Positions 29,843 through 57,207 of a stretch of 64,000 nucleotides of DNA are shown here, piece by piece (positions within the stretch are counted from its first letter, which is position 1; each line of letters begins with the position of its first letter). The translations under genes and the position numbers were made by a program. Source of the stretch: Ferrimonas kyonanensis DSM 18153 (lineage in GTDB: Bacteria > Pseudomonadota > Gammaproteobacteria > Enterobacterales > Shewanellaceae). The DNA is taken from the NCBI RefSeq assembly GCF_000425405.1, contig NZ_KE384365.1:81594-145593 (forward strand), given 5' to 3'. The notes under the pieces are model-generated. The model was not told the DNA's origin and did no database searches. It saw only the letters and a program-made list of their open reading frames with translations.

Positions 29843-30130
29843 ATGAAAACGTTACTGTTTACTCTGGTTACCCTGTTCTTCAGCTCCACAGCACTGGCCA
29901 CCGGCGGCGGTGGCGGCGGTAACCCAGGTCCGGCAGCCGGGGTCAATATCTCGGCCTCACACTGTTTTGACGCCAACGCCAAACGCATCAAAGGCAGCGC
30001 CACCATGAAGAAAGAGCGTCGCTGTCCGGTCACCGGCGTGAATCAGATCGACCTGCTCAACTACAACAACTTCTATGGCAACAAGCCTAAGAATGAAACC
30101 CTGAGCATGATCCAAAAACGCAAGAACTAG
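29843..30130 (+). CDS. Small secreted protein with a polyglycine stretch, unknown function
   Basis: A 95-residue protein with signal peptide MKTLLFTLVTLFFSSTALA, followed by TGGGGGGNPGPAAG. The mature part is basic and has two Cys (SHCFD and RRCPV). GGAG sits seven bases before the ATG. No family recognised. It is 40 bases before the hydrolase gene in the same direction, so they may be co-transcribed. Confidence 0.65.
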   Translation: MKTLLFTLVTLFFSSTALATGGGGGGNPGPAAGVNISASHCFDANAKRIKGSATMKKERRCPVTGVNQIDLLNYNNFYGNKPKNETLSMIQKRKN

Positions 30131-30170
30131 CGTACCCTGATCATCTGAGACATCGGTTAGGGAGAAGCCA

Positions 30171-30800
30171 ATGCAGCTGGTGATGCTTCATGGGCTCTAC
30201 ATGCACCACACCATAATGCGTCCCCTCGCCGCCCTGATGCGTAATCAGGGTTGGCAGGTGGACGGTTTCAGTTACAACAGCCTGGCCATCGACCCGGACG
30301 TGCTGTTTCGGCGCCTGGACCGGCGACGGCGCCCCGGTCAGCCCATGTACCTGCTGGGGCACAGCCTCGGAGGCGTGCTGATTCGCCAGTACGCCGAGCA
30401 GCATCCGCTGCCCCCGGGCTCCCGCTTGGTTACCCTGGGGTCTCCTCATCAAGGCGCCACGGTGACCCGGCAACTGCAGAAGTGGAATCTGCTGGGACTG
30501 CTGGGCAATGCCCATGAACACGGCCTGCTACCGACGGAACGGCGAGATTACAATGCCGACACGCCCTTGGGCAGTCTTGCCGGAGACGCTGGCATCGGCA
30601 TGGGCAAGCTGTTGACTAACCTCAGTAACACCCCCAATGACGGCACCGTCACCGTCGATGAGACTCGAATCGACGGCATGAGTGATCACATTGTGCTACC
30701 GGTTAGCCACACCAGCATGCTGCTGTCCGCCGAGGTCGCCAGACAAACCCATCTCTTTCTGAGTCATGGTCATTTTCAGCATCAACCTGTTGAACAATAA
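30171..30800 (+). CDS. Alpha/beta hydrolase, lipase-like
   Basis: A 209-residue hydrolase without signal peptide. The nucleophile elbow is GHSLGG (about 64-69), the N-terminal strand and oxyanion region read VMLHGLYMHH, and LGSPHQGATVTRQL is typical of the PGAP1/triacylglycerol-lipase subgroup. A late His in LPVSHTSMLLS completes the likely triad. Substrate unknown. AGGGAG precedes the start. Confidence 0.8.
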   Translation: MQLVMLHGLYMHHTIMRPLAALMRNQGWQVDGFSYNSLAIDPDVLFRRLDRRRRPGQPMYLLGHSLGGVLIRQYAEQHPLPPGSRLVTLGSPHQGATVTRQLQKWNLLGLLGNAHEHGLLPTERRDYNADTPLGSLAGDAGIGMGKLLTNLSNTPNDGTVTVDETRIDGMSDHIVLPVSHTSMLLSAEVARQTHLFLSHGHFQHQPVEQ

Positions 30801-30877
30801 CCCCAATCCATCACAACTTACCGAATCATTGTCATTGCTGTGCTTAGTCACAGTCCCGGATCACAGTCTGTGAATCA

Positions 30878-31017
30878 GGTACAAAAATCGCCAGTTTCCG
30901 GACTTTTCTTACCTATTTTGAACCGGGATTCAGCATTACTTTCACTGGTGCACAACTTAATGCGCTTCGGGGACTATCCCATACCCGTGCGCCGACTGTG
31001 TCACCTACTACAGGGAA
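30878..31017 (+). promoter_or_regulatory. Octaheme-module leader, copy A
   Basis: First of four related leaders (others at 33729, 35723 and 37353). It starts AGGTACAAAAATCGCCAG, contains CAGCATTACTTTCACTGG, and ends CACCTACTACAGGGAAATG at the cytochrome start. It lies directly before octaheme cytochrome 1. It probably holds the promoter and the site of the module's AraC regulator. Upstream is a TCACA-GTC-TGTGA palindrome at 30861-30873. Confidence 0.6.
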
Positions 31018-32619
31018 ATGATGATGATGAAACTCAGCGGGCTCAGTTTGCCCTTAAAAACCCTCTCCGCCGCCATTCTGCTCAGTCTACTGAGCGCCTG
31101 CGGCAGCGACAGCGACAGCAACACCCCTTCCGAACCGGGTAACACCGCACCGGTCGCCAACCCGGTGGAAGCCAGTGCCACCATGGGCAGCAAGACCCTT
31201 ATTGATGCCCTGGCCAACGACACCGATGCCGATGGCGACCCCTTGACCCTGGAGACGGTGATCCTCCTCAAGGGGCTGGGTACCGCCTCCATCCACAACA
31301 ATCAGGTACTGTTTGACCCGGTTGAGGTGGGCACCACTATCCTCAGCTACGCCATCTCCGATGGTAATGGCGGCCAGGCGGAATCCACGGTCACCGTGGT
31401 GGTCAGCGCCCAGGAACTCTCCTATGTGGGATCCCAGGCCTGCCTTTCCTGTCACACCGATAAAAAAACCTACCTGGAAACCGGCCACAACTTTAAGCTC
31501 ACCAAGGTTGAGGGTGATCAGGAACCCATCTACCCCTTCACCTCGATTTCAGGGGCTCTGGATCTGTTGGATGTGGACAACACCCTGGGCACCCCCAGCA
31601 GCTGGGCAGACATCAGCTACGTCATCGGCGGCTATATGCGCAGTGCCATGTTTATCGATAACAACGGCTATATCCTGTCCGGCGATAAGGCGGGTGTCGG
31701 CATCGCCCCCAAAGGCGGCCAGGTGCCCTATGCGTTTCCTTATAGTGCCAATGATGCACCTGACTCCCATGGCTTCGATTATTGCGGTCGCTGTCACACC
31801 ACCGGCTGGAAAGACTACACCGAAGGCAGTGGCGATCACCGCAACCTGAACCGCCAGGACGACATGCCAGGCATGGGCGGCACCTTTGCCCTGACCGGGA
31901 TCCAGTGCGAAGCCTGCCACGGCGCTGGCAGGGCCCACATCCAGAGCCCGTCGAAGCACAACATCGTCAAGATTGCCGAGCCCCGCTCCACCAACGACTA
32001 CCTGGCACAGGACATGGGCTTCGGTAAGCCCATCGCCTGCGCCGAGTGTCATAGCACTGATGATGCCGTGCGACGCTACCCAGACTACGTGTCCCCCCAC
32101 AACCAGGAGTTTGGCGGCGACAGCCTAGAGGCACGCCTGAAGGTGATGACCGGTTTCGGCCCCGAAGGCCGCCGGGACGGCCGAGGTGGTCGTCAAGCTG
32201 CGACCGAACTCCTGGGCACCGATCCTGACACCGGCATCGCCATGGGTAAAAAGAAGGGCTTCACCTGCTCGACTTGTCATAACCCGCATAAATCCAAAGT
32301 CAATCAGGATAAGCCAGGCCACGAAGGCGCCATGGCGCGCGACTGTAACGATTGTCACACCAAGGAGTTCGCCAACGCTGCCGGCAGTGACATCGCTTCC
32401 GCCGCCCACGAATTCACCGCCAAGTGTACCGATTGCCACATGCCGGGGAATTCCCACATGTTCAAGATCGATCTCGACGGCGCCAAGAACGATCCAAGGC
32501 ACTTCTCGGCGGACGGCGATTACGTGAAACCATGGCTTCGTGCCTATGACAGCTGCTCCGGTTGTCACGAGGATGACTATGATGAACGTGCCACTCGCAT
32601 AGGCAAGATTCACCTGTAA
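31018..32619 (+). CDS. Octaheme c-type cytochrome lipoprotein with Ig/cadherin-like domain (octaheme 1)
   Basis: A 533-residue secreted lipoprotein (lipobox LLSAC, Cys28). Residues about 45-135 form a bacterial Ig/cadherin-like domain (ALANDTDADGDPLTLE, YAISDGNGGQA). The rest has eight CxxCH sites: CLSCH, CGRCH, CEACH, CAECH, CSTCH, CNDCH, CTDCH and CSGCH. GIQCEACHGAGRAH resembles cytochrome c554-type heme domains. It should be an electron-transfer protein on the periplasmic or outer surface; the acceptor is unknown and I know no characterised homologue with this domain order. Four ATGs are in tandem at the start. A paralogue follows at 33868 and an AraC regulator sits between them. Confidence 0.88.
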   Translation: MMMMKLSGLSLPLKTLSAAILLSLLSACGSDSDSNTPSEPGNTAPVANPVEASATMGSKTLIDALANDTDADGDPLTLETVILLKGLGTASIHNNQVLFDPVEVGTTILSYAISDGNGGQAESTVTVVVSAQELSYVGSQACLSCHTDKKTYLETGHNFKLTKVEGDQEPIYPFTSISGALDLLDVDNTLGTPSSWADISYVIGGYMRSAMFIDNNGYILSGDKAGVGIAPKGGQVPYAFPYSANDAPDSHGFDYCGRCHTTGWKDYTEGSGDHRNLNRQDDMPGMGGTFALTGIQCEACHGAGRAHIQSPSKHNIVKIAEPRSTNDYLAQDMGFGKPIACAECHSTDDAVRRYPDYVSPHNQEFGGDSLEARLKVMTGFGPEGRRDGRGGRQAATELLGTDPDTGIAMGKKKGFTCSTCHNPHKSKVNQDKPGHEGAMARDCNDCHTKEFANAAGSDIASAAHEFTAKCTDCHMPGNSHMFKIDLDGAKNDPRHFSADGDYVKPWLRAYDSCSGCHEDDYDERATRIGKIHL

Positions 32620-32627
32620 CCCCTGCC

Positions 32628-32659
32628 AGCCAGCGACAGCGCGTCGCTGGCTGATTTTT
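32628..32659 (+). terminator. Terminator after octaheme 1
   Basis: AGCCAGCGAC pairs with GTCGCTGGCT and is followed by GATTTTT. It separates the cytochrome from the downstream AraC gene. Confidence 0.8.
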
Positions 32660-32723
32660 ACCGCCTATGGCACTTCCCCTCAAACCTGTCATCATTACAC
32701 CAACAACAGTCACCGGAGTTCTT

Positions 32724-33605
32724 GTGGACAGCAGCGCCCCTATTCCTAACATCTGCTACCGTGCACCTTCGCAGGAAGAATCTGGCATCGAAGTGCTGGA
32801 TCTTGAACGCTTCCGCGGCCGGCTCAATGACTACCACTTCAACCCCTACCAACCGCACCGCGTCAGCTATTTTTGCTTCCTGTTCATCGATGAGGGCGAG
32901 GGAGAACACCTGATCGACTTTCATCGCTACCCCTATCGGTCGGGCAGCGTCATTTTCGTCAATCCCAATCAAGTACATGCCTTCGATAGCGCCGATCGTC
33001 CCAAAGGAAAGATGATCAACATCACCACCGCCTTTTTCTCCGACAGTGCCTCCAATATTCGCACCTCGTACTTCGCCCCCTTTCACCAGAGCATGGCCGC
33101 ATCACCGGTACTGCCCCTGAACGACGACCTGAAAGACAGCTGCAAGGCGCTACTAACGGAAGTCAGAAAGGCCCAGCATGAGGGCGCCGATGATGACGTG
33201 GTCGTACAACTGCTGATCTCTTCGCTGTTGATCAAACTGGGTCGGCGACGACAAAGCCACCTAAGCCACCTCAGTGAACATCAGAAGGAGCGATTCGACC
33301 TGTTTCTAACTTTGGTGGAGCAGTGCTTCCCCGAAGCCAGGGAGGCCAGTCACTATGCCGACCTGATGCACACCAGTTACAAGACGTTGAATCAATTATG
33401 CAAAACATGCTGTGGCCGCACCGCCAAACAACTGATCGACTTTCGTACCATTCTGGAGATAAAGCGCAAGCTGGTCATGGATGGGTTATCTTCCCAGGAG
33501 ATCGCGTCGGACCTTAGCTTCGAAGACATCAGTTACATGAACAAGTATTTCAAACGCCTGACTGGCCAGACCCCGGCGGCCTTTAAGCGGGACAACGAAT
33601 GCTGA
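32724..33605 (+). CDS. AraC-family regulator, module copy 1
   Basis: A 293-residue regulator: N-terminal cupin-like domain (PYQPHRVSYFCFLFIDEGEG) and two helix-turn-helix motifs at the C-terminus (about 215-290, ending LTGQTPAAFKR). GTG 32724 is chosen because GGAG lies five bases upstream and because it makes the protein start MDSSAPIPNICY, aligning with MDKIDNIPQITY and MDKFDDIPNISY of the two paralogues, all then 293 residues. The first HTH contains an unusual CKTCCGRT. It lies downstream of octaheme 1 after a terminator, and upstream of leader B. Confidence 0.88.
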   Translation: MDSSAPIPNICYRAPSQEESGIEVLDLERFRGRLNDYHFNPYQPHRVSYFCFLFIDEGEGEHLIDFHRYPYRSGSVIFVNPNQVHAFDSADRPKGKMINITTAFFSDSASNIRTSYFAPFHQSMAASPVLPLNDDLKDSCKALLTEVRKAQHEGADDDVVVQLLISSLLIKLGRRRQSHLSHLSEHQKERFDLFLTLVEQCFPEAREASHYADLMHTSYKTLNQLCKTCCGRTAKQLIDFRTILEIKRKLVMDGLSSQEIASDLSFEDISYMNKYFKRLTGQTPAAFKRDNEC

Positions 33606-33728
33606 AGAACCGTTAAGGCCAATCAGCGCTTAACGCCATCACTAGGCAATTACTTGATATTGATACAGAAAAAATCTAGAGCCCTACTCCCCAATTCTTC
33701 TGGGCGCAGTCACACTTTCGACAGCAAG

Positions 33729-33867
33729 GTACGGTAACGGCAACTTTTCAGCCTTTACTGACCTGTTTCATCGGCAGCTCCAGCCACTATTTTCCCCGGT
33801 GCAAAACCTGGTGCACCCGCTCCCTTGGAGCCGGGCGCACCACTGTGTTAGCTACTGAAAGGAAATA
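33729..33867 (+). promoter_or_regulatory. Octaheme-module leader, copy B
   Basis: Begins GGTACGGTAACGGCAACT, continues with a TTTCAG and GACCTGTTTC block, and ends GTTAGCTACTGAAAGGAAAT before the octaheme 2 start. It shares the AACGGCAA and GACCTGTTTC blocks with copies C and D. Confidence 0.65.
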
Positions 33868-35463
33868 ATGATGATGAAACCCAATACGCTCAATGCGCCG
33901 ATGAAAACGCTGGCAGCCACTGCCCTGCTCAGCCTGCTGACCGCCTGCGGCAGCGACAGCGACAACAACTCGGTTGCACCGCCTCCTCCGCAGAAGAACG
34001 CGGCCCCGATAGCCACTGCCGACACCGCCGAGGCCACCGTTGGCAGCCAGGTGATCATCGACGTCCTGGCCAACGACAGTGATGCCGATGGCGATCCCCT
34101 GACCCTGGACCGGGTTGACCTGGTAACGGGAAACGGCAGAGTCTCCATTGAGGACAACAAACTTCTGTTTGAACCGGAAAAAACCGGCGAGGCCAAGTTG
34201 GCCTACGAGATTAGCGATGGCCGGGGCGGTGAGGCGAGATCCACCGTCACCGTCACAATCGCAACCGAGCCAGCGGAGCAACTGAGTTATGTGGGCACCC
34301 AGACCTGCCTGAGCTGTCACAACGACAAAGAAAGCTTCCTGACATCCGGCCACCCCTTTAAGTTGGCTAAGGTGGTCGATGGCCAGATGCCCGAGTACCC
34401 CTTCACCAACATCGCCGGCGCCTTGGAGATGATAGATGGCGTGATCAACCCGGGTGGTGCTCCCACCAGCTATGAAGAGGTTGCTTACGTGATTGGTGGC
34501 TACAAGCAAGCAGTTCAGTGGGTGGGTCTGGATGGCTACATAATCACTGGTGAAAAGGTGATCGGCAAGCTCGACGGAGATGGCTATATCTCTGATATAT
34601 GGTCATTTGGAGAAAACCTGGGCCCCGAAGTCAGACCCTATCACTGTGGTCGTTGCCATACCACCGGCTGGAAGGACTTCACCTCCGCGGAGGGGGACAA
34701 TAGAAACAACCATCACCAGGATGGCCTGGAGGGTATTCTGGGGACCTTCGACCAGACCGGCGTCCAGTGTGAATCCTGTCACGGTGCGGGCAGCGACCAC
34801 ATCAAATCCCCATCCAGCAACAACATAACCCGCCTGGCCGAACCTCGTACCGCGGCGGATATGAAGGCCGAGGACCAGGCCTTCGGCCAAGCGGTTGCCT
34901 GTGCCGAATGCCATACTAAAAAAGGCGATAAGACCTACCCAGAATATCTAACCCATTACACCGAAAAGTTTGGCGGTGACGCCGTCGGAGGCCTGATCCC
35001 TAAAGGCACAGCGGGCCTGGGGGGGCTTGGAGGTCGTATCGCTGGTGATGCGATTATGGGCTATAACCCGGATACCGGCGTGGCCGAAGGCAAGAAGCAA
35101 AACATGCACTGCAGTACCTGCCACGAAAGCCATATGTCTACCCACTTCAGGGACAAACCCGGCCACGAAGGCGGCTTGAAAAGAGAGTGTACCGATTGTC
35201 ACCAGATGGAGTTTGCCAACGCCGAGGGAGGGAATGGCATGGCCGCTATGATTCACAGCAGCACAGATTGCAGAAACTGTCATATGCCCTCCCGGTCACA
35301 TCTGTTCAAGATCGATATCTCTGCCCCCTCTGACGATAGCTACCACTACTCAGAGGACGGCGTTTACAGCCAGCCGTGGCTGCGACCTTCCGACGCCTGT
35401 CAAGGCTGTCATGCCGAAGACTACGACGCTAGAGCCGCTCAGATAGGCAAGATCCACAAGTAA
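33868..35463 (+). CDS. Octaheme c-type cytochrome lipoprotein with Ig/cadherin-like domain (octaheme 2)
   Basis: A 531-residue paralogue of octaheme 1 with the same plan: lipobox LLTAC (Cys27), a proline spacer, an Ig/cadherin-like domain (VLANDSDADGDPLTLD, YEISDGRGGEA), then eight CxxCH sites (CLSCH, CGRCH, CESCH, CAECH, CSTCH, CTDCH, CRNCH, CQGCH). The heme-domain ends match closely (DYDARAAQIGKIH versus DYDERATRIGKIH). The central loop and glycine-rich segment before the fifth heme differ, which may reflect different partners or acceptors. AGGA lies four to seven bases before the tandem ATGs. Followed by its own terminator, then by a decayed third copy. Confidence 0.88.
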   Translation: MMMKPNTLNAPMKTLAATALLSLLTACGSDSDNNSVAPPPPQKNAAPIATADTAEATVGSQVIIDVLANDSDADGDPLTLDRVDLVTGNGRVSIEDNKLLFEPEKTGEAKLAYEISDGRGGEARSTVTVTIATEPAEQLSYVGTQTCLSCHNDKESFLTSGHPFKLAKVVDGQMPEYPFTNIAGALEMIDGVINPGGAPTSYEEVAYVIGGYKQAVQWVGLDGYIITGEKVIGKLDGDGYISDIWSFGENLGPEVRPYHCGRCHTTGWKDFTSAEGDNRNNHHQDGLEGILGTFDQTGVQCESCHGAGSDHIKSPSSNNITRLAEPRTAADMKAEDQAFGQAVACAECHTKKGDKTYPEYLTHYTEKFGGDAVGGLIPKGTAGLGGLGGRIAGDAIMGYNPDTGVAEGKKQNMHCSTCHESHMSTHFRDKPGHEGGLKRECTDCHQMEFANAEGGNGMAAMIHSSTDCRNCHMPSRSHLFKIDISAPSDDSYHYSEDGVYSQPWLRPSDACQGCHAEDYDARAAQIGKIHK

Positions 35464-35490
35464 CGTCCACCAGCGGGTAACCGAAAGCCT

Positions 35491-35526
35491 AAAGCCGGCA
35501 CCGAACTGATGCCGGCTTTGTTGTTT
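35491..35526 (+). terminator. Terminator after octaheme 2
   Basis: AAAGCCGGCA pairs with TGCCGGCTTT, followed by GTTGTTT. In 35527-35722 I see no gene. Confidence 0.75.
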
Positions 35527-35722
35527 CCCCATGGCCGTGTTGGACAGCCTCGGTCCCCCCGACACGGGGCAAAAGACCGCCTCGAACCCCGGCTTTGATG
35601 CCCCCCATTCGAATGACTATTTTTAAACACGCGCCCGGCAGGCACTCTTTTGACGCTCAAAGAGGCGTTTTTAAGATCCATGTCACCGTTTCCAGATGGC
35701 GGCGATCACATTCCCGTCGCAC

Positions 35723-35859
35723 GGTACTTTAACGGCAATTTTCAGGCCTGTTTCGACCTGTTTCAATGCCGAGTTCACCATTACTTTTACATGGACACGG
35801 CCTGGTTCGCAGCGGCGATAAGCCAAGCGTGCCGCCCTGTTACCTACTGTAGGGAAATA
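35723..35859 (+). promoter_or_regulatory. Octaheme-module leader, copy C
   Basis: GGTACTTTAACGGCAATT at 35723, a GACCTGTTTC block, CACCATTACTTTTACATGG, and GTTACCTACTGTAGGGAAAT at the end. It is well preserved although the cytochrome gene it should precede is almost gone. Confidence 0.65.
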
Positions 35860-35912
35860 ATGATGAACCCATTGCGGCCAATGCACCGATAAAGACGCTA
35901 ACGGCCGCTAAA
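35860..35912 (+). pseudogene. Remnant of a third octaheme cytochrome gene (start only)
   Basis: After leader C the bases ATGATGAACCCATTGCGGCC and those that follow align with the start of octaheme 2 if one base is inserted. The restored reading is NAPIKTLTAA, against NAPMKTLAAT in octaheme 2. Similarity stops near 35912. The rest of the reading frame, including all heme sites, is missing, and hairpins then AraC copy 2 follow. This is the scar of an internal deletion. Confidence 0.7.
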
Positions 35913-35914
35913 GT

Positions 35915-35983
35915 AAAACGAGTACACCTCTAAGGTACTCAGTTTTAAGAAGTGTCAGCGGTTTAAGCTGACACCTCTTTTTT
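35915..35983 (+). terminator. Two successive hairpins before AraC copy 2
   Basis: First: GAGTAC (35920-35925) with GTACTC (35935-35940), flanked by AAAAC and GTTTT. Second: GTGTCAGC with GCTGACAC (35952-35974), followed by CTC and six T, a good terminator. It occupies the place a terminator has after intact octaheme genes. Confidence 0.75.
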
Positions 35984-36046
35984 CAACACCAATCCTCAAT
36001 GCCTAAACCCAGCCAGTTGAGCTGCCTCCCTTGAGAAGCCTGATAG

Positions 36047-36928
36047 ATGGATAAAATCGACAACATTCCCCAAATCACCTACGACAGCCCTCAGCTTCGT
36101 AAGGCTGGTATGGACATACTGGATCTGGAAACCTTTGTTCAGGATATCTGTGATCAGGGCGCCAACCCTTACCAACCTCATCGGGTCAGCCATTTCTGCC
36201 TCATTTTTGTCGAGCAGGGCGAGGGGCAACACCCTATCGATTTTCACTCCTACCCTTATGAATCTGGCTGCGTGATATTTCTTAATAAATACCAAATCCA
36301 TACCTTCAACAGGGACAACAAAATCAAAGGCACGCTGGTACTAATGACCCGGGAGTTCTTCGCCGCTGGCGCCGCCAACATCCGCACCTCCTATTTTGTA
36401 CCAGCGCATCAAACCCTGAGCGCCTTCCCGATATTGCCTCTCTCTGACGACCTCAACGAGAGCACCAGGGCGATGCTGAGCGAAATGACACGCGCGATCA
36501 AGGAAGGGCCGGACAGCGGCGTCATCGTACAGTTGCTGCTGTCAGCCATGTTGCTGAAGTTGACCAAGCTGCGGCAGGGCCACCTGGCCCACCTCAGTGA
36601 ACAGCAGAAGGCGCGTTACGGAGAATTCCTGCGCCTGGTGGATGAACAGTTCACCGAGGTCCGCGAGGCGAGCCAATACGCCCAGATGATGCACAGCAGT
36701 TACAAATATCTGAACCAACTCTGTAAAACCTGCTGCGGACACACCGCCAAACAGCTGATCGATTTTCGCATCATCCTCGAGATTAAGCGCAAACTGACCA
36801 TGGACGGTCTCTCGGTTCAGGACACCGCCTTTGAAGTAGGGTTTGAAGACATCACCCATTTTATCAAGTACTTCAAACGCCACACAGGCAAAACCCCGGC
36901 GGCCTTTAAGCGAGAGCAAGGGGATTGA
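36047..36928 (+). CDS. AraC-family regulator, module copy 2
   Basis: A 293-residue paralogue of the AraC proteins at 32724 and 37748. It begins MDKIDNIPQITY. The effector half has PYQPHRVSHFCLIFVEQGEG and SGCVIFLNKYQIHTF; the HTH half has YLNQLCKTCCGHTAKQLIDF and ends KRHTGKTPAAFKR. It is more like copy 3 than copy 1. The adjacent Cys pair in the recognition region is kept in all three. With the local cytochrome lost, it may act on octaheme 1 or 2, or on genes outside the window. Confidence 0.9.
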   Translation: MDKIDNIPQITYDSPQLRKAGMDILDLETFVQDICDQGANPYQPHRVSHFCLIFVEQGEGQHPIDFHSYPYESGCVIFLNKYQIHTFNRDNKIKGTLVLMTREFFAAGAANIRTSYFVPAHQTLSAFPILPLSDDLNESTRAMLSEMTRAIKEGPDSGVIVQLLLSAMLLKLTKLRQGHLAHLSEQQKARYGEFLRLVDEQFTEVREASQYAQMMHSSYKYLNQLCKTCCGHTAKQLIDFRIILEIKRKLTMDGLSVQDTAFEVGFEDITHFIKYFKRHTGKTPAAFKREQGD

Positions 36929-36931
36929 GGC

Positions 36932-37174
36932 TCAGCTGGCCTCCTCCGCTTCATGGCGATAGAGCTTCACCAGGTAGTAGATATCAATCACCACAATAAA
37001 GGCATTCACCAACATTACCGGGTAGGCACCGATGGCCCAGCCATAAAGGACAAACAGCGCCGCTCCCAGCAGATTCCACCAGCGTAGCTTTTTAATGTCT
37101 GCCATCATCAGCGACACCGCGACCACGATGGAGGCCGCGTACCCTACCCACTCCCAAATCCAGTGCAATTCCAT
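36932..37174 (-). CDS. Small YgjV-like inner-membrane protein
   Basis: An 80-residue protein with three hydrophobic segments. WVGYAASIVVAVSLMMADI and WNLLGAALFVLYGWAIGAYPVMLVN give the family look of the two-repeat YgjV/CBU_0592 type membrane proteins of unknown function. A similar 73-residue protein is encoded at 56909-57130. It sits tail to tail with AraC copy 2, three bases away, and interrupts the series of modules. Confidence 0.7.
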   Translation of the reverse strand: MELHWIWEWVGYAASIVVAVSLMMADIKKLRWWNLLGAALFVLYGWAIGAYPVMLVNAFIVVIDIYYLVKLYRHEAEEAS

Positions 37175-37352
37175 GGCTTATCCCCTATCGAAGTCCTGCC
37201 TTCATTGTAGTGGCAATGAGGCTCAAGTCAGCCTCCATTGCACATCATCCCCTCCTGAACCGGCCCACCAGCCCCATTTGCCCCCACACTGCGGCCTCGG
37301 TTCGCCCTGGGTCACAGCTCCAAAGCCTACCCCGATCACACTCCCTTCACCC

Positions 37353-37450
37353 GGTATGTTAACGGCAATTTTCAGACCGTTGCCGACCTGTTTCCCAGGC
37401 GACTCCAGCAGTATTTTTCCTCCTGTACAACGGTACTCACCACGGTTCCA
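37353..37450 (+). promoter_or_regulatory. Octaheme-module leader, copy D (partial)
   Basis: GGTATGTTAACGGCAATTTT, then GACCTGTTTC, CGACTCCAGCAGTATTTTTC and a short CCTGTACAACGG. Similarity to copy C begins upstream at GATCACA (37334) and ends near 37450. No cytochrome start follows. The rest of 37175-37747 shows only a GGCATCG/CGATGCC hairpin (37648-37672) before AraC copy 3. Confidence 0.6.
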
Positions 37451-37747
37451 GATCGAACCGCTTGAGAACCCCGGCACCGTCACCACTGAAAACAGCAAGG
37501 CGCAGTCCAAGCCCGAACCGGTCGATGGCGCCAGGCTGAGTTAGCAGAGTCACGATAGTCGGGGTGGTGAGGCTGCCAGAAACAGAACTTCGAGGAGCGA
37601 GCTGTTAGAATGAAACCAGTTCATCTTTAAATCAGAGGCTTCGTGGAGGCATCGGCTTCGAGTGTCGATGCCAATTTAGTCATCGATAGCCAATGCCTTA
37701 GTGTTGGCAGAGAGCTCTTTGCCACCCTTCAGTAACAAGGCCAACCA

Positions 37748-38629
37748 ATGGACAAATTCGACGACATTCCTAACATCAGCTACGGCAGTCCACTATTGGA
37801 TAAGATTGGCATCGACATACTGGACTTAACGCAGTTCCTCGACAACTTAAGCCAGCAGGGAGTCCATCCCTACGAGCCGCACCGCGTCAGCTATTTCTGT
37901 TTCATTTTTTTGGAACAGGGGAAAGGTCAACACTCCATTGATTGTCATTCGTACCCCTATCAATCCAACAGCATCATCTTTGTCAACAAAGGGCAGATAC
38001 ACGCGTTTGATCAACAAGACAGGCCCAAGGGTAAGCTGCTCATTCTGACACCAGAGTTTTTCTCAGCCGCCTCCGCCAATATTCGCACCTCCTATTTTGT
38101 ACCGGTCCACCAAAGCCTGAGTGCTTTTCCCATTCTTCACCTCTGTCCGGGGTTAAAGGAGACCAGTCGAGCGCTATTGAATGAGATGAAGACCGCCTTA
38201 ACTGAGGGGGCGGATAGCAGCGTCATTGTGCAACTGCTGTTCTCGGCCTTATTGATCAAGCTAGCCAAACAACGAGACCGCCATCTCGCTCACCTCAGCG
38301 AACAACAAAAAAACCGTTTTGGCGAATTTCTGCGCCTGGTCGATAACCACTTCACCGAAAGCCGGGAGGCAAGCCAGTACGCCCAACTCTTGCATACCAG
38401 CTATAAATCCCTGAACCAGCTTTGCAAAGTTTGCTGCGGCCACACCGCCAAACAGTTGATCGATTTCCGCATTATCCTCGAGATCAAACGCAAACTGACT
38501 TTGGGAGGCTGCTCGGTCCAGCAGGCTGCCTTTGAACTGGGGTTTGAGGACACCACTCACTTCATCAAGTACTTCAAACGCCACACCGGCAAAACCCCTG
38601 CCGCCTTCAAGCGAGCCTACGAGGGATAG
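37748..38629 (+). CDS. AraC-family regulator, module copy 3
   Basis: A 293-residue paralogue beginning MDKFDDIPNISYGS. Effector half PYEPHRVSYFCFIFLEQGKG and NSIIFVNKGQIHAF; HTH half SLNQLCKVCCGHTAKQLIDF, ending KRHTGKTPAAFKR. Very similar to copy 2 across its length. The region upstream holds leader D without a cytochrome. It ends the array. Confidence 0.9.
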   Translation: MDKFDDIPNISYGSPLLDKIGIDILDLTQFLDNLSQQGVHPYEPHRVSYFCFIFLEQGKGQHSIDCHSYPYQSNSIIFVNKGQIHAFDQQDRPKGKLLILTPEFFSAASANIRTSYFVPVHQSLSAFPILHLCPGLKETSRALLNEMKTALTEGADSSVIVQLLFSALLIKLAKQRDRHLAHLSEQQKNRFGEFLRLVDNHFTESREASQYAQLLHTSYKSLNQLCKVCCGHTAKQLIDFRIILEIKRKLTLGGCSVQQAAFELGFEDTTHFIKYFKRHTGKTPAAFKRAYEG

Positions 38630-38762
38630 CACAGGTTCCCCCAGCCCCGCCTTGGGCTCCAGCAAAGAAGCGTTTTAAATGCCCGTTTTTCATATGGATG
38701 GACAAAAAGCCAGCCAACTTTGCTACACTGCCGAGTTCTGTTTGCAATGAAATTCATCTGCC

Positions 38763-40733
38763 ATGAACCACACCGCCATGATCGCAGCCCGGCCCGGCTC
38801 AAAACGCACCGCCACCTGGTTGTTTGCCGTATTCTTGGTGGTGGCACTGATGGTCGCGGCTATGAGTTGGGTCAGCGTCAGAACCGGTTTCATGGTTCAG
38901 GAAGACTCCGAGCAGATGGTCCAGCGCCACATTCCGGAGATGGAGGCCATCGGCGTGCTACAGGCGGCATTGAGTCAACAGGTGAATCAGTTATACCTCT
39001 ACTATGCCACCACCGATCGGCCCCCTTATCTCTCTCGATCCCGCGAGCTCAATCTGAGCATTAACCGCGGCATTGCCCACCTGCAAGATCTCGGCATCAC
39101 CGCCCGTGACGCCACCGTTCTGCGTCAGAGCATTACTCAATTCAACCTTCATGCGGCCCAGTTTGACACCCAGATGAGCGGCCCCAGGGATTGGGATAAA
39201 CTCCGTCAGACCCTGTCCGATGCACAACAGGTGGTCGACACTGCCCATGAGCAATTGAATCAATGGCAGACGAAGATCCGCATGGCCACCATGAACGACA
39301 GCGAAGCCGCCCTGTCTGAAGTCAACAAATTGTCACGTCTGCTGGTCGGCTTCAGCATCGCCATACTGGCAGTATCGGCCTTTGTCTTGATGACCTTGTA
39401 TTTACGGCTCAAAGACCGCGATCAACTGTTCCGTTTTGCATTTTACGACTCCCTTACCGGGCTACCCAACCGTCGAACCCTGACCCAGGATCTGTCTGAT
39501 AACCTGCAACACACCGACGCTGGCGCCTTGATTCTGCTGCGGCTGGAGCGCTATGCCTTGCTCACCGGCACCTATGGTCACAGCTTTGGCGGCGAGGTTC
39601 TGATTGCCGTCAGCCAATGGATTCAGCGACGCCTTAGCAACAGTGGTTGCACCACCAAGCTGTACCGCTTCGGTGAAGACAGTTGGGCAGTGACCGTCCA
39701 TCACAGCCATCAGGCCCGTGAACTCAGCGAACTGGCTACCAAGCTGGCCCAACTGGCGGACGAACCGCTGTATGTGCAGCAACGGCTGTTGAACCTGAGC
39801 GGCAAGATCGGCATTACCCGCTACCCTCAGGACAGCAACGACAGCGATCAACTGATGCGCAACGCCGATGCCGCCATTCACAGTCTCAGCGGCAGCAACC
39901 AAAGCTACCGTTTCTACGACCGCGAACTGACCGAGCGAACCCAGCAATGGCTGGCCACCGAGGCCGCCCTTCGACACGCCATTCGCAACCATGAATTTGA
40001 GCTGTTCTATCAGGTTAAAATTCACGCCAAAACCCTGAAAATCGCTGGGGCCGAGGCGCTGATTCGCTGGCACCACAACGGCAAAACCATTTCGCCCGCC
40101 GAGTTTATTCCCGTCGCCGAGCAAAGCGGACTGATTGTGGCTCTGGGTAACTGGGTATTGAATGAAGCCTGCCGCCAGCAAGCTCAATGGAAAGCGGAGG
40201 ATCGGCCGCTCTACCCGCTGGCGGTAAACGTCTCGGCTCAGCAATTTGCGGATCCAGCCTTTCCCCAGACCGTGTCCGACTGCCTGGCACGCCACGGCAT
40301 CGACGCCCGCCTGTTGGAACTGGAGATCACCGAAGAGGTGGCCGCCGCCGATCCGCAACGCGTGGTCGAGACCATGCAACAACTCAAGGCGACCGGCGTC
40401 ACCATTGCCCTGGACGACTTCGGCACCGGCTACTCCTCCCTGTCCTACCTACAGCGCTTGCCCATCGACACCCTGAAGATCGATCGGGCCTTTGTCTCGG
40501 GTATCGACACCGTGGCCGACAACGCCGCTATCGTCGATATGATTCTGTCACTGGCCAGCCAGGGAAATCTGAAGGTTGTCGCCGAGGGAGTCGAAACCCA
40601 GGCCGAGTCACGACTGCTTAGGGAGAAATCCTGCACCCTGCTGCAGGGGTATTTGTACGGACGGCCGGAGCCAGCCCCCACTTTCAGTGAACGACTGAGT
40701 AACAGGCTGCCCAGCCGTGCCGCCACGGTGTAA
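38763..40733 (+). CDS. Membrane EAL phosphodiesterase with degenerate GGDEF domain
   Basis: A 656-residue protein. Two membrane helices (about 18-40 and 194-216) bracket a helical periplasmic sensor. The GGDEF domain is degenerate: RFGEDSW (about 302-308) replaces GG[DE]EF, so it should not make cyclic di-GMP. The EAL domain (about 405-645) keeps AEALIRW (Glu431), VNVSAQQF, LEITEE, DDFGTGYSSLSYL, LKIDRAFV and EGVET, so it should hydrolyse cyclic di-GMP. It opposes the cyclase at 15597 in function. Single gene. Confidence 0.9.
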   Translation: MNHTAMIAARPGSKRTATWLFAVFLVVALMVAAMSWVSVRTGFMVQEDSEQMVQRHIPEMEAIGVLQAALSQQVNQLYLYYATTDRPPYLSRSRELNLSINRGIAHLQDLGITARDATVLRQSITQFNLHAAQFDTQMSGPRDWDKLRQTLSDAQQVVDTAHEQLNQWQTKIRMATMNDSEAALSEVNKLSRLLVGFSIAILAVSAFVLMTLYLRLKDRDQLFRFAFYDSLTGLPNRRTLTQDLSDNLQHTDAGALILLRLERYALLTGTYGHSFGGEVLIAVSQWIQRRLSNSGCTTKLYRFGEDSWAVTVHHSHQARELSELATKLAQLADEPLYVQQRLLNLSGKIGITRYPQDSNDSDQLMRNADAAIHSLSGSNQSYRFYDRELTERTQQWLATEAALRHAIRNHEFELFYQVKIHAKTLKIAGAEALIRWHHNGKTISPAEFIPVAEQSGLIVALGNWVLNEACRQQAQWKAEDRPLYPLAVNVSAQQFADPAFPQTVSDCLARHGIDARLLELEITEEVAAADPQRVVETMQQLKATGVTIALDDFGTGYSSLSYLQRLPIDTLKIDRAFVSGIDTVADNAAIVDMILSLASQGNLKVVAEGVETQAESRLLREKSCTLLQGYLYGRPEPAPTFSERLSNRLPSRAATV

Positions 40734-40933: not shown

Positions 40934-41677
40934 ATGAACACCTCTCTCGCACAGCTCCCCTCCCGGGTAGCGGGGTCTTTGCCCCCATGGCAGCAGATAC
41001 TGGATACCATCAAGCCGAACATCTTCCACCACGGCATTCAGGGATTCTGGTTTCAGGGAGTCGCCCTTTGCGCCTACGACAATTATCACAGTAACTGCCG
41101 CAGCAACCTGTTTACCCCCCACACCCTGCGACGGGCTCAAGGGGTGCTGTGTTCATCGCCAAAGATCCGCCAGCTGCACCAGCACTACGTGAGCCGGGTC
41201 GCGACATCGGATCCCAACTTTGCCGCCGCCTTGCAGCTGCAACAGCCCTATTGCTATGGTCTGGATCCGGACACCACCAAGGCCGGCCGCCTGTTTCACA
41301 GTCATGGTATTCACCAGGTATTAAGCTGGCCGTTGCTTCAGACCGACTGCCACTCCTGGGCGGGACGCTTTACCCTGCTCAGCGACAACAGCATCGACAC
41401 TGAGCAGCTAGGCAGTACTCTGGAGATCGCCCAAATGAAGCTATTCCAGCTTGGACGAGAGCGATTCAACCCCTACCGTCAGGGCCGAGTCTTCACCTCC
41501 ACGGCGCTCGGAGTCCTGGCCCTGACCGCGCGGGGACTGCACAACCACCAGATTGCCGAACAGCTGCACCTGACGGTAAGAGGGGTGGAGTACCACCTCG
41601 AAGCGATGAGAAAAAAACTGGCTGCCAGCAATCGTGCCAACCTGATCCACATCGCCCACCAACTGGAGATTATCTGA
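40934..41677 (+). CDS. LuxR-type transcriptional regulator
   Basis: A 247-residue regulator with a C-terminal LuxR HTH (about 190-245): LTARGLHNHQIAEQLHLTVR followed by VEYHLEAMRKKL. The N-terminal 170 residues are distantly like autoinducer-binding domains, but the key residues cannot be judged by eye. It ends three bases before the response-regulator gene and is probably in one operon with it and the kinase. Confidence 0.82.
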   Translation: MNTSLAQLPSRVAGSLPPWQQILDTIKPNIFHHGIQGFWFQGVALCAYDNYHSNCRSNLFTPHTLRRAQGVLCSSPKIRQLHQHYVSRVATSDPNFAAALQLQQPYCYGLDPDTTKAGRLFHSHGIHQVLSWPLLQTDCHSWAGRFTLLSDNSIDTEQLGSTLEIAQMKLFQLGRERFNPYRQGRVFTSTALGVLALTARGLHNHQIAEQLHLTVRGVEYHLEAMRKKLAASNRANLIHIAHQLEII

Positions 41678-41680
41678 ATC

Positions 41681-42355
41681 ATGCTCGTCCTCCTGGTCGA
41701 AGACAACCGCCTGTTAGCGAAGAATATTGTTCACTTTCTTGAGCTCAACGGCATCGACTGCGATTACGCCAGCACCCTGCACCAGGGGGGCGAATTGCTG
41801 TTCCAGCGCCACTACGATGCCCTGATACTGGACCTGAATCTGCCCGACGGTGACGGCGTTATGGCCTGCCAGCAGTGGAAAGCCCAGTGCCTGCCGACCC
41901 CAATCATCATGCTGACTGCCAGAGGCAATCTCAACGACCGACTCAAAGGCTTTGAGGTCGGCGCCGATGACTACCTGGTGAAGCCCTTCGCCCTGCCGGA
42001 GTTGGTAGCCCGCCTGAGAGTGATCGCCGAGCGCCGGCCGGCGCCCAAGGTGCTCACGCTGGGCGACCTTGAAATCGACTTTGGCAGTCATCAGGCCTGG
42101 CGCCAGCAGCAACCACTGGCGCTATCGAAAACCGGCTGGCAGATCCTGTCGCTGCTGGCCAGGCGTAGCCCGGAAGCGGTGGAGCGAGAAGAGATTGAGC
42201 GTATGCTGTGGCCCGACACGCCACCGGACAGTGACAGCCTGCGCAGCCACCTGCACCTGCTCAGGAAAGTGGTCGACAGGCCTTTCGACAGCAAACTGAT
42301 CCACACCCTGCGCGGCGTCGGCTTATGTCTCAAGGTAAGTCGCGATGAAACCTAA
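41681..42355 (+). CDS. OmpR-family response regulator
   Basis: A 224-residue regulator with a receiver domain (LLVEDN, phospho-acceptor Asp51 in LILDLNLPDGDG, TAR, Lys101 in LVKPF) and a winged-helix DNA-binding domain (about 130-220). It overlaps the histidine kinase gene by 11 bases. The three-gene LuxR-regulator-kinase unit precedes the tsx-urdA-apbE cluster in the same direction, so it is a candidate regulator of that cluster (inference). Confidence 0.9.
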   Translation: MLVLLVEDNRLLAKNIVHFLELNGIDCDYASTLHQGGELLFQRHYDALILDLNLPDGDGVMACQQWKAQCLPTPIIMLTARGNLNDRLKGFEVGADDYLVKPFALPELVARLRVIAERRPAPKVLTLGDLEIDFGSHQAWRQQQPLALSKTGWQILSLLARRSPEAVEREEIERMLWPDTPPDSDSLRSHLHLLRKVVDRPFDSKLIHTLRGVGLCLKVSRDET

Positions 42356-43553
42356 ACTCAGCCTCAAGCGGGTCTATCAGGGCTACGGTCTGGCGTTCCT
42401 TGCCATCACCCTGGCCATCAACAGCATCATCCCCCTATGCATGATGTGCACCGGCATGTTTTCGATGCATGAAATCACCATGAATAACGCCGGTCAGGCC
42501 GCCGAGCAGTTGTTCAGAAGCAGCGGAAAAGCCTTTGTTACCGAAAACATTCAGGTGTTTGACCGTTGGCAATCGGTTCCCAGGCAGGTACGTGCCATCA
42601 GCGACTTTGTTCCGCCCAAACAGCCGCAGTCCATCCACTACCAACACGTCGATGGCCCCTTCATCGATGCCCTGATGCTGTATCAGGGCCAGGACCAACG
42701 TCCCTACTACGTCTGGCTGCACTACAATGCCACTCACGACCTGGTGTTTGCCCCTAAAAACATGACCGCCATTTTGCTGCTGATCGTCATGACCTTCGGC
42801 GTGGTCGCCAGCCTGGCGTTTTATATGCAGAGTCAAGTCATCACCCCGGTGCACCAGATCAGCCAGGCCATCAAGCAACACGACTGGCAAAAAATGCTGC
42901 CACTGCAGTTCCCCAAGCAGTGCTACGCCGAACTGCAGTCCATCGTTGACGCCCTCGAGGGCTCGATACGGCAACTGAAACAGGCGCAACAGCGGGAACT
43001 GAGTTTTCTGCGCTTTGCCAGCCACGAACTGCGTACCCCCATCGCCATCTGCCAATCCTCATTCGATATTCTGACCCTGCAGCAAGGTCAATTGAGCGGA
43101 CCGACACTGCACGCTCGCCAAGCCACCGCCCAGATGAAGTCGATCACCGAAACCCTGCTGTGGATGATGGATCCGGACTGCAGTTCCATGGACCCGTCAC
43201 CGGTGCACCTGAGCCAGATGCTGAGTCAGGTTGTCGAAGACCAGCAACACGCCCAGGGCAGCAGCGTTGCAGTCAACCTTAATGGTGACGCCACCCGACT
43301 GACCACACTGAAAGAGCCCCTGTCCATCGTGCTCAACAACCTGATTCGAAACAGCCTGGAACACGGCGCCGATGGCATCGACATCCAACAGCGGGGCAAA
43401 TGCATCGTTATCAGCAACCCCATGGCCAACAATAACCACAGTGGCTTCGGCCTGGGATTGATGCTGGTCAAGCGTCTGACCACGCAACTGGAATGGCAGT
43501 TTGAGATCGACACCAGCGACAACCGCTTTCGAGCCTCACTGACGCTGCCCTGA
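42345..43553 (+). CDS. Sensor histidine kinase
   Basis: A 402-residue kinase. Helices at about 12-40 and 140-162 enclose a periplasmic sensor of about 100 residues without a recognised fold. The phospho-acceptor box is FASHELRTPIAI (His227), followed by NNLIRNSLEHG and GFGLGLML. It lacks a long central G1 box of the DxG type: the region between N and G2 boxes is short (GIDIQQRGKCIVISNP), a compact catalytic domain. It is the partner of the overlapping response regulator and is followed by a terminator. Confidence 0.88.
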   Translation: MKPKLSLKRVYQGYGLAFLAITLAINSIIPLCMMCTGMFSMHEITMNNAGQAAEQLFRSSGKAFVTENIQVFDRWQSVPRQVRAISDFVPPKQPQSIHYQHVDGPFIDALMLYQGQDQRPYYVWLHYNATHDLVFAPKNMTAILLLIVMTFGVVASLAFYMQSQVITPVHQISQAIKQHDWQKMLPLQFPKQCYAELQSIVDALEGSIRQLKQAQQRELSFLRFASHELRTPIAICQSSFDILTLQQGQLSGPTLHARQATAQMKSITETLLWMMDPDCSSMDPSPVHLSQMLSQVVEDQQHAQGSSVAVNLNGDATRLTTLKEPLSIVLNNLIRNSLEHGADGIDIQQRGKCIVISNPMANNNHSGFGLGLMLVKRLTTQLEWQFEIDTSDNRFRASLTLP

Positions 43554-43576
43554 GGTTAATTCAATCGAATGCACAC

Positions 43577-43599
43577 CGGCGCCCTTTGGGCGCCGTTTT
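43577..43599 (+). terminator. Terminator after the histidine kinase gene
   Basis: CGGCGCCC-TTT-GGGCGCCG followed by four T. Confidence 0.85.
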
Positions 43600-43900
43600 C
43601 GTTGCTGGTGGCCTATAAACAATCGACAACTGCGATTATTTAGTTGAATAAAAAATTGAAAAATATTATTTTGACGTTAATTTCACAAAGGCACCAAATC
43701 AATAAAAAGCCAAACCAGTCAAGTTCCACAGGTTTATTTAAACGAGCTCACAAAACCCAACACCACAGGTAAAAATGATTTCATTCACTGCCTTATTCCA
43801 CACACTTTAATCACCGACAACCCAGTCCCGGAAGCATCTCCCAGTCCATTATTTTCAACCCGGTATTCTGACCAGGAATTTTCAGCTAGGAATCCCTCGG
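43600..43900 (+). promoter_or_regulatory. AT-rich promoter region of the tsx-like/urdA cluster
   Basis: About 300 bases without a gene; 43620-43760 is strongly AT-rich compared with its surroundings. It should hold the promoter and regulator sites for the porin and urdA genes. I could not pick a specific box with confidence. Confidence 0.35.
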
Positions 43901-44647
43901 ATGAACACCAAGTTAATCGCAGCACTGTCAGCATTGCTGGTGGCTCCCGCCATGTCAGCCACCTCTCTGGACCTGGGCTACAAAGCCTATACATCGGATA
44001 CCCGAGACGACAACGCCGGCGCCTACAACCAACCTTTCTTAAAACTGAGCCACTTTAACAAAGCCGATTGGGGCACACTGTTTGCTTATGTAAAACTGGA
44101 GAATCCCGGCGAAGTTAAGGACGCTCAACACGGTGCCGACGGCAAATTAACGGTAAAATCTCTGGCCATTGTCGATAAACAGATTGGCAGCAGCAATCAC
44201 AACCTGTGGATGCAAAACTTCCTGTCTTCAAATCGCACCGTTATGGAAGACAACCTGTATTTAGGTCTGACTACCAATCAAAAATTTAATGGTCTGTTTA
44301 TTAACGCCGGTATCGGTATTAACTATTCCGCCGCCTCTTTTAGCCCCACCAATGCCAGCTTCGATGGCCTCAGTGGTGGTGCCGCCGTCATCAACGCCCG
44401 CTACCCCTTCGCCCTCGCAGGCCTGAAACACAGCCTCACCGTGAACTACGAAGGTCAATTCGGCCGCGATGACGAACACAAGCAGACTCTGGGCTACGAC
44501 AGCTACGGTCATCAGCTCATCACCACCCTGAAAACCAACCTGACCGAGTCCTTGTACACCAAGCTGCACCTGACCCAGTTCGACAGCTGGGGCGCCACCC
44601 CCAACGACGGCATCGAGTACGGCATCGCCATCGGCATGAGTTTTTAA
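43901..44647 (+). CDS. Outer-membrane channel, Tsx/OmpK type
   Basis: A 248-residue beta-barrel protein. Signal peptide MNTKLIAALSALLVAPAMSA is followed by TSLDLGYKAYTSDTRDD, and the chain ends in Phe (GIAIGMSF), as outer-membrane barrels do. QPFLKLSHFNKADWGTLFAY and the alternating pattern fit the nucleoside-channel Tsx family. Only 15 bases separate it from urdA, so it may admit the reductase substrate (urocanate or a related small anion). It follows a long AT-rich region. Confidence 0.8.
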   Translation: MNTKLIAALSALLVAPAMSATSLDLGYKAYTSDTRDDNAGAYNQPFLKLSHFNKADWGTLFAYVKLENPGEVKDAQHGADGKLTVKSLAIVDKQIGSSNHNLWMQNFLSSNRTVMEDNLYLGLTTNQKFNGLFINAGIGINYSAASFSPTNASFDGLSGGAAVINARYPFALAGLKHSLTVNYEGQFGRDDEHKQTLGYDSYGHQLITTLKTNLTESLYTKLHLTQFDSWGATPNDGIEYGIAIGMSF

Positions 44648-46411
<1,764 letters not shown>

Positions 46412-49874: not shown

Positions 49875-49947
49875 CATTTCTCCAAAAATGGAATTCGCCC
49901 TCTAAGTGGCTGGGAGAAATACTATTTGAAGTGGCTAAACCCTGAAT

Positions 49948-57130: not shown

Positions 57131-57207
57131 ACTGGGTCTCCTTAATTGCGGGAGAGAGCGGGTTGCCTCAAGGCCGCACAAGCCCCGGACAACGCACTCC
57201 TAAGTCA

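Follow-up and report, generated by a model that had tools for sequence, protein, structure and literature searches.

What kind of system is encoded at a locus of Ferrimonas kyonanensis DSM 18153 in which two octaheme cytochrome genes are accompanied by three AraC-type regulator genes and four copies of one upstream element? In the window analysed here, a stretch of 64,000 nucleotides, the gene order proposed in the initial annotation is borne out and runs leader A, cyt1, araC1, leader B, cyt2, leader C with a cytochrome remnant, araC2, a YgjV-like gene on the reverse strand, leader D and araC3; the proposed repeating unit of leader, cytochrome and AraC is likewise supported. The reading we prefer, to which we give a probability of roughly 55%, is that of a respiratory cassette of two genes, repeated at the locus. 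It would work as a free-standing and inducible reductase, with regulators that persist after their cytochrome has been deleted and that probably control common leaders in trans. An MtrC-like cytochrome is also encoded about 9 kb from the locus.

The two intact cytochromes, cyt1 (31018..32619, forward strand, 533 aa) and cyt2 (33868..35463, forward strand, 531 aa), are octaheme c-type cytochrome lipoproteins with 49% identity. As first described, they share a lipobox, whose Cys can be read in the sequence, an Ig/cadherin domain (Big_9/Cadherin in Pfam) and eight CXXCH motifs apiece. All 17 Cys residues are accounted for, 16 in the heme motifs and the last in the lipobox, so that none remains for a copper site of the MccA type. 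The lipobox suggests that both proteins may be of the surface type. Among relatives, cyt1 is 83-95% identical to the first cytochrome of genomes G005, G008 and G011, and cyt2 forms a clade with the second cytochrome of the same three genomes.

Comparison with solved structures places these proteins near a small group of multiheme enzymes. Profile matches were strongest to the undecaheme S-layer cytochrome of Carboxydothermus ferrireducens (PDB 6qvm, 3e-19), which we take to be OmhA, followed by OcwA, the surface terminal reductase of Thermincola potens (PDB 6i5b, 2e-15), and the octaheme sulfite reductase MccA/SirA (PDB 4rkm, 5e-7). The heme region of cyt1 was modelled by AlphaFold from the 76-sequence alignment (pLDDT 92.2), whereas an earlier model of full-length cyt2 from 24 sequences was poor (pLDDT 57.6) and was kept out of the fold search. 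With the predicted cyt1 domain, Foldseek ranked OcwA first (2.9e-10), then 6qvm (2.7e-8) and MccA (6e-6); eight chains of the OcwA/MccA fold group were detectable (E 2.9e-10 to 7.9e-5) with a modest TMq of 0.40-0.46. The predicted cytochrome domain resembles the OcwA/OmhA/MccA group. Hemes 1-3 and three later hemes line up with OcwA, and a β-rich region is present. OcwA is described as a nine-heme protein in which two hemes have open sites and three helices form a C-terminal bundle, and a common β-sheet domain is assigned to MccA and OcwA (PMC6703420). The Ferrimonas proteins differ from nine-heme OcwA in their eight motifs, Ig/cadherin domain and Gram-negative lipobox, and the last helices of the predicted domain (377-383 and 389-396 of 401) do not form the long C-terminal three-helix bundle of the OcwA/NrfA type. 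The 6qvm protein has eleven hemes and belongs to an S-layer. MccA/SirA has the same heme number as cyt1 and cyt2. Its hallmarks, a heme-8 motif of unusual form and a pair of additional Cys residues that bind copper, are absent from cyt1 and cyt2, in which all eight motifs are ordinary and no extra Cys occurs. MtrC, OmcA and UndA are surface-type lipoprotein cytochromes of the same bacterial group, but these outer-membrane proteins are decaheme; membership of the OmcA/MtrC family was rejected, as the NCBIfam model TIGR03507, whose cut-off lies at 209.3 bits, scored them at only 16.7 and 19.7.

In MccA/SirA an open, five-coordinate heme 2 marks the active site. Since only seven non-motif His residues are conserved across the 76 cytochromes against eight hemes, one heme, perhaps heme 2 as suggested by the alignment to OcwA, may be open.

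All three regulators belong to the AraC/XylS family, each with a C-terminal double helix-turn-helix (HTH_18) above the cut-off and an N-terminal AraC_binding domain in Pfam. They had been described as exactly 293 residues each, which holds for AraC2 (36047..36928, forward strand) and AraC3 (37748..38629, forward strand) read from ATG; AraC1 (32724..33605, forward strand) reaches this length only from a GTG at 32724, its longest open reading frame being 312 aa. HpaA and RhaS-type regulators have the same two domains, and HpaA is the best NCBIfam match (4e-20 to 4e-23), but the Ferrimonas proteins score below the curated cut-offs of these models; the AraC profile had no match at 0.001 among solved structures. 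An AraC gene adjoins 46 of the 76 cytochromes examined, and the other 30 have none recorded nearby, so that an AraC partner is not obligatory; in G002 a cytochrome gene and the AraC gene are convergent. These 76 comprise 74 of at least 125 family matches (at most 7, 4 and 13 candidates were scored per genome, which makes the family counts lower bounds) and two sequences from outside the family; 24 were labelled by hand, and 5 of 57 multi-heme open reading frames, which failed 1e-30, were left out of the alignment. Adjacency was scored on cytochromes other than nine ‘solo’ ones with flanks of about 1.5 kb (L010-L016, L101 and L102). For eight of these nine, all but L102, genome-wide AraC searches placed no such gene on their contig at the thresholds used. 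No paper describing such a cytochrome-AraC pairing was found in the open-access literature searched, which is not proof of absence.

Typing of 30 neighbouring proteins by Pfam at 14 loci gave mostly unrelated neighbours from group to group, and for this reason the pair looks free-standing. In a second genus three neighbours are themselves multiheme cytochromes (L152, L157 and L172), and further cassettes may therefore be close by.

A common feature of the units is the leader, a promoter/5′UTR element of about 165 nt. A profile HMM was built from an alignment of 13 sequences that included leaders A, B and C, whose high scores are thus expected by construction, and excluded leader D. In the window it matched at 30860-31028, 33710-33875, 35705-35867 and 37335-37448 (E 7e-41 to 1e-19), which on the forward strand gives leader A at 30860..31017 (7e-41), leader B at 33710..33867 (4e-34), leader C at 35705..35859 (7e-39) and a shortened leader D at 37335..37448, covering model positions 1-114 of 165 (1e-19, and 7e-18 with a second model, R1). 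BLASTN, which is independent of the HMM, also pairs leaders B, C and D among themselves (E 1e-12 to 3e-7; B against C 6e-10, C against D 1e-12). The claim of four leaders stands, with D recovered from outside the training set. In 14 genomes of the genus, model R1 found 23 sites with E no higher than 0.0122, 11 of them its own training sequences and 12 not; 17 lie upstream of these cytochromes, five upstream of AraC genes with no cytochrome between, and one upstream of a porin gene in G009. The leader is specific to genes of the cytochrome/AraC cassette, all 23 R1 sites being there or at that porin. When the HMM was run on sequence upstream of 127 genes, it gave E<0.001 before 27 (13 of these in training) and a reversed control gave none at E<0.5. 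Ten genomes of the second genus yielded ten matches at E≤0.05; seven of these fall below 1e-11 and, by comparison of positions and with loci other than that in G744 retrieved, are upstream of these cytochromes. Conservation of an RNA structure is weak (covariation term -0.18 kcal/mol; two-sided change in 4 of 18 pairs), and no Rfam family was found in 30000-39000. A 21-bp direct-repeat AraC operator was considered and rejected, since column permutation in three leader sets gave no significance at either the best shift (p 0.06-0.29) or the 21-nt shift (p 0.29-0.71).

A cassette opens with this dedicated promoter-leader, continues with the gene for an octaheme lipoprotein cytochrome and a hairpin resembling a terminator, and closes with the gene for an AraC-family regulator. 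The regulator would most likely use its cupin-like AraC_binding domain to sense a small electron acceptor, or the product of that acceptor, and activate the conserved leader. The cytochrome would then be produced in bulk, and read-through of the terminator would yield modest amounts of AraC. The cytochrome is probably a terminal reductase, and one of its hemes, perhaps heme 2, would be open. In the gap between cyt1 and araC1 an intrinsic-terminator-like hairpin (32627..32653, forward strand) has an 11-pair stem and a T-rich tail; another 3′ of cyt2 (35491..35526, forward strand) was identified by eye, its loop exceeding the limit of the scan, and is therefore absent from the scan list. The same proteins could be viewed as general extracellular electron conduits to minerals or electrodes, with the AraC proteins answering a general physiological signal rather than a specific acceptor. 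The lipobox and Ig/cadherin domain, the surface cytochromes OcwA and 6qvm as best matches and the MtrC-like cytochrome some 9 kb away all speak for such a role, which we nevertheless consider rather unlikely: several units own a regulator each, AraC-type sensors with this domain usually bind small molecules, and in G009 a porin gene has this leader in front of it too, which fits a soluble substrate.

The initial annotation further held that loss of cytochromes had left regulators behind, and this state is seen in the window, in F. sediminum, in G012 and, with weak leader matches, in G002 (1.2e-4) and G003 (6e-4). Behind leader C, some 50 nt of a cytochrome 5′ end are fused to its last codons at a junction in a GCCGC-type repeat, as an alignment to the termini of intact cytochromes shows, forming a remnant of about 74 nt (35860..35933, forward strand); no intact cytochrome thus stands between araC2 and its leader. 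This deletion is common to F. sediminum and the window, in line with a collinear match of 1.5 kb to G005 at 82%. The locus varies in copy number among Ferrimonas genomes: F. futtsuensis has two intact pairs here, and G012 retains leader and AraC with a cytochrome truncated differently. On the AraC tree, with the distant L052 and L053 left out, the state of leader plus AraC with no cytochrome between changes five times. From leader D to araC3 nothing recognisable is left of a cytochrome gene: these 326 bp matched only their own genome among 15 genomes (nine of the other 14 from the same genus), and 237 bp upstream of leader C matched their own genome and, in one short stretch, G006 in the same number of genomes. 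Between araC2 and leader D lies the gene for a small YgjV-like membrane protein (36932..37174, reverse strand, 80 aa; Imp-YgjV in Pfam, E 1e-5), which also adjoins an AraC gene in G005, G008, G011 and G012.

Regulators with no cytochrome behind their leader might be non-functional relics in early decay, as the truncation of leader D and the lack of a cytochrome directly upstream of AraC3 could suggest. We hold this to be improbable, as the reading frames of all three AraC genes in the window are intact, and upstream of araC2 not only the leader but also a terminator-like hairpin (35952..35981, forward strand), found by the hairpin scan and aligned with five sequences of four relatives, has been kept. 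AraC2 and its orthologue in G005, which bears the same deletion, differ by dN 0.070 and dS 0.78 (dN/dS about 0.09, a value that may count time before the deletion if both deletions arose separately), a pattern indicative of purifying selection between the two.

As to how the array arose, the single ancestral unit that the initial annotation saw as recently amplified in tandem across the whole locus, and then decaying, does not agree with the trees. An approximately unbiased (AU) test on 44 of the 76 cytochrome rows rejected a single clade of cyt1 and cyt2 (p-AU 1.8e-6); cyt1 and AraC1 each group with the second genus, and cyt1 and cyt2 each have their own same-place counterpart in F. futtsuensis, F. 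sediminum and G011. The expectation that copies would be nearest relatives fails for the cytochromes, while one clade of the AraC proteins was not rejected (p 0.1; 0.052 with one more row), and together with the repeated order, the likeness of leaders B, C and D and the 71% DNA identity of AraC2 and AraC3 this favours amplification. For the array as a whole we regard that history as very improbable, and for the cyt2-type unit it stays open. Cyt1 and cyt2 are old paralogues, and recent local duplication and decay apply to the cyt2/AraC2-type unit only. An old pair of unlike units, cyt1/AraC1 and cyt2/AraC2, would have acquired further cyt2-type copies, two of which lost the cytochrome and kept leader and AraC. 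The regulators that survive there would probably serve, in trans, the leaders of other copies as well.

A mosaic origin, in which exchange of cassettes by interspecies recombination outweighed local duplication, concerns history only, is compatible with our preferred reading and seems to us possible, if somewhat doubtful. In blocks of 150 nt, identity to G005 is 89-96% through leader A and cyt1 until about 32650 and 67-77% beyond it, across AraC1; the cytochrome and AraC of L163 pair with different partners in the trees, and cyt2 and AraC3 of the window are the first branches of their clades. Gene order and flanks are nevertheless conserved with relatives, and the deletion common to the window and G005 points to common descent. 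Among viral contigs, 72 stretches matched a pattern and none encodes a relative; plasmids gave no match.

The deletion of the cytochrome in several copies that kept promoter and switch suggests a swappable, inducible respiration kit, and the array may, as first proposed, be a switchable set of terminal reductases. More tentatively, the cytochromes may be disposable, swappable cassettes and the AraC proteins the durable part, repeatedly outliving them under selection as a cross-acting network over the conserved leader, in which regulators without a reductase of their own would contribute to the acceptor response. The cassette points to a family of candidate terminal reductases, as yet uncharacterised, that Ferrimonas shares with a sister genus and that goes together with its own regulator and a leader of high specificity. 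This leader offers a ready-made reporter for identifying the inducing acceptor, and the repeated loss of cytochromes with promoter and regulator kept provides a natural test of the persistence of regulators after the loss of their target.

The locus at 30860-38629 comprises, in order, leader A, a first octaheme lipoprotein cytochrome (cyt1), the AraC-family regulator AraC1, leader B, a second such cytochrome (cyt2), leader C with the remnant of a deleted cytochrome gene, AraC2, a YgjV-like gene on the reverse strand, a truncated leader D, and AraC3. The leader-cytochrome-AraC order described in the initial annotation is borne out here by Pfam, ORF and leader HMM analysis, as are the eight heme sites, lipobox and Ig/cadherin domain ascribed to both cytochromes: each bears eight CXXCH motifs, a Big_9/Cadherin domain (Pfam) and 17 Cys residues, namely 16 heme Cys and one lipobox Cys. 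Terminator-like hairpins lie 3' of cyt1 and, past the remnant, upstream of AraC2, as revealed by a scan in which any single site is weak evidence (13 sites, 9.1 expected in shuffles), and a similar hairpin 3' of cyt2 was recognized by eye. A second small protein resembling the YgjV-like gene product (42% over 67 residues) is encoded at 56909-57181 (minus strand).

Alignments with intact genes resolve the remnant as approximately 50 nt of a cytochrome 5' start fused to its last codons. The junction falls within a repeat of the GCCGC type, which intact cytochrome genes show at either end, and we infer from these sequences that the deletion arose by a repeat-mediated mechanism. The window shares its genus with F. 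sediminum DSM 23317 (G005) and F. futtsuensis DSM 18154 (G008), and the comparison across Ferrimonas that had been suggested reveals a locus of variable content. F. futtsuensis and a further Ferrimonas genome, G011, carry two intact pairs (cyt1-AraC1-cyt2-AraC2) followed by the YgjV-like gene. F. sediminum carries cyt1-AraC1, then leader C, remnant, AraC and the YgjV-like gene, a segment collinear with window 35686-37217 at 82% identity, and then leader-cyt2-AraC; AraC2 and its F. sediminum orthologue are separated by a dN of 0.070 and a dS of 0.78. Only a leader, a differently truncated cytochrome, an AraC and the YgjV-like gene are present at this locus in G012.

The initial annotation read this arrangement as the tandem amplification of one cytochrome/AraC unit, with the copies as nearest relatives. 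Phylogenetic analysis places cyt1 with cytochromes of two Ferrimonas genomes (G002 and G003) and many from a sister genus of the same family, and cyt2 with those of G005, G008 and G011 alone. A single clade of the eight cyt1 and cyt2 rows is rejected (AU test, 44 rows; p-AU 1.8e-6), and by this phylogeny cyt1 and cyt2 are not sisters. AraC1 likewise falls with regulators of the sister genus, and AraC2 and AraC3 fall with those of G005, G008, G011 and G012; one clade of all AraC copies of the locus is not rejected (p 0.1 with 11 rows; p 0.052 with 12 rows). Because cyt1 and cyt2 are not sisters and AraC1 groups with the sister genus, amplification is confined to the cyt2/AraC2-type unit. There are also signs of exchange. 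Identity between the window and F. sediminum, taken per 150-nt block, is 89-96% over leader A and cyt1 and 67-77% over AraC1, and the sharp drop near 32650 suggests recombination. At a related locus (L163, 6688-9318), the cytochrome belongs to one tree group and its AraC to another, and the leader is of the type found with cytochrome-AraC pairs; one cytochrome may have replaced another behind a retained leader.

The leaders, upstream elements of approximately 165 nt, are conserved, with 45 invariant columns among 13 aligned sequences (two from the sister genus), including the ribosome-binding and start region. With up to three mismatches allowed, a search for AACGGCAATTTTC...CGACCTGTTTC gave eight occurrences of this motif, spread over five of the 14 genus genomes (control 0), and a direct-repeat operator within the leader was not significant. 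A sequence-only model of the leader (R1) found 23 sites in the 14 genomes at E≤0.0122, 11 being its own training sequences and 12 not. Seventeen precede cytochromes of the window's family and five precede AraCs with no intervening cytochrome (two in the window and one each in G005, G012 and G002, the last with a convergent cytochrome on the far side of the AraC). The remaining site precedes a porin gene in G009 (Porin_4, 1.5e-36), where a full-length leader, the porin, a cytochrome and an AraC follow in turn (L078:9722-10933, minus strand), an arrangement that fits a soluble acceptor. A second leader-like stretch upstream of that cytochrome was seen by eye only, the HMM giving no match there. 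At least 3 of 11 weaker sites (E 0.035-0.39) also precede cytochromes of this family, and G003 bears another AraC without an intervening cytochrome behind a weak match (E 6e-4). Across 10 sister-genus genomes there are 10 matches at E≤0.05, and all seven strong ones (E<1e-11) lie upstream of these cytochromes; the leaders of loci L154 and L157 were training sequences, and the assignment in G744 derives from coordinates of profile matches. On the AraC tree, the state of a leader and AraC with no cytochrome between changes at least five times.

The predicted fold of the cyt1 heme region (pLDDT 92.2; 76 sequences) returned eight Foldseek matches at E≤0.001, comprising OcwA (2.9e-10), 6qvm (2.7e-8) and MccA chains (6e-6 to 7.9e-5), with TMq of 0.40-0.46. 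A profile search (13 sequences at E≤0.01) is again led by 6qvm and OcwA, with MccA fourth. Five non-motif His residues are invariant among the 76 sequences and two more are present in 66 and 70 rows, which would supply seven distal ligands for eight hemes. As described in PMC6703420, hemes 1-4 and 6-9 of OcwA align with MccA, the two share a β-sheet domain, and heme 2 is an active site in both. In the profile alignment, the second heme motif of these cytochromes pairs with the motif located at OcwA residue 131, and we infer that the second heme is the open one. A separate MtrC/MtrF-like multiheme cytochrome is encoded at 47547-49877 (minus strand), approximately 9 kb from the locus.

At the level of the bacterial family, the heme-region profile finds matches at 1e-12 in at least 54 of 146 genomes, for a total of at least 125; at 1e-30, and with the own genome counted each time, it does so in at least 3 of 274 genomes of a class sample and at least 2 of 398 of a phylum sample. 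The 76 cytochromes (24 rows labelled by hand for AraC adjacency) include 24 in the order cytochrome-AraC, 20 in the order AraC-cytochrome, cyt2 of the window with the remnant in between, one with AraC on the opposite strand (G002), and 30 recorded without AraC, nine of these outside the adjacency check. In two sister-genus loci (L153:6107-11275 and L162:7194-12348), an AraC is followed by two tandem cytochromes. Thirty neighbouring proteins from 14 loci, typed by Pfam, include transporters, chitinase-like, chemotaxis, GGDEF/EAL and fatty-acid synthesis proteins, among others, and three are multiheme cytochromes of other families. Since these functions vary from group to group, the cytochrome-AraC pair looks like a free-standing module. 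Elsewhere in the window, 40934-46411 encodes in a row a LuxR-type regulator, a response regulator, a 402-residue ORF for which Pfam gave nothing at 1e-5, a Tsx-like channel and an FMN_bind/FAD_binding_2 flavoprotein; the set resembles a reductase for a soluble acceptor that is under regulation and has a dedicated channel.

The components are of already known kinds. No description of the pair was found in the open-access literature searched, passages of PMC8805035 and PMC11475568 included. There, the cassette as such, the leader in front of it and the pattern of cytochromes lost repeatedly with the regulator kept all appear undescribed. In the working proposed here, AraC would bind the leader as well as a small effector; the cytochrome would then be made from the activated leader, and AraC would be made next, by read-through of the terminator-like hairpin. 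After deletion of a cytochrome, the leader, terminator and AraC would stay, and the AraC may still be able to act on other leaders.
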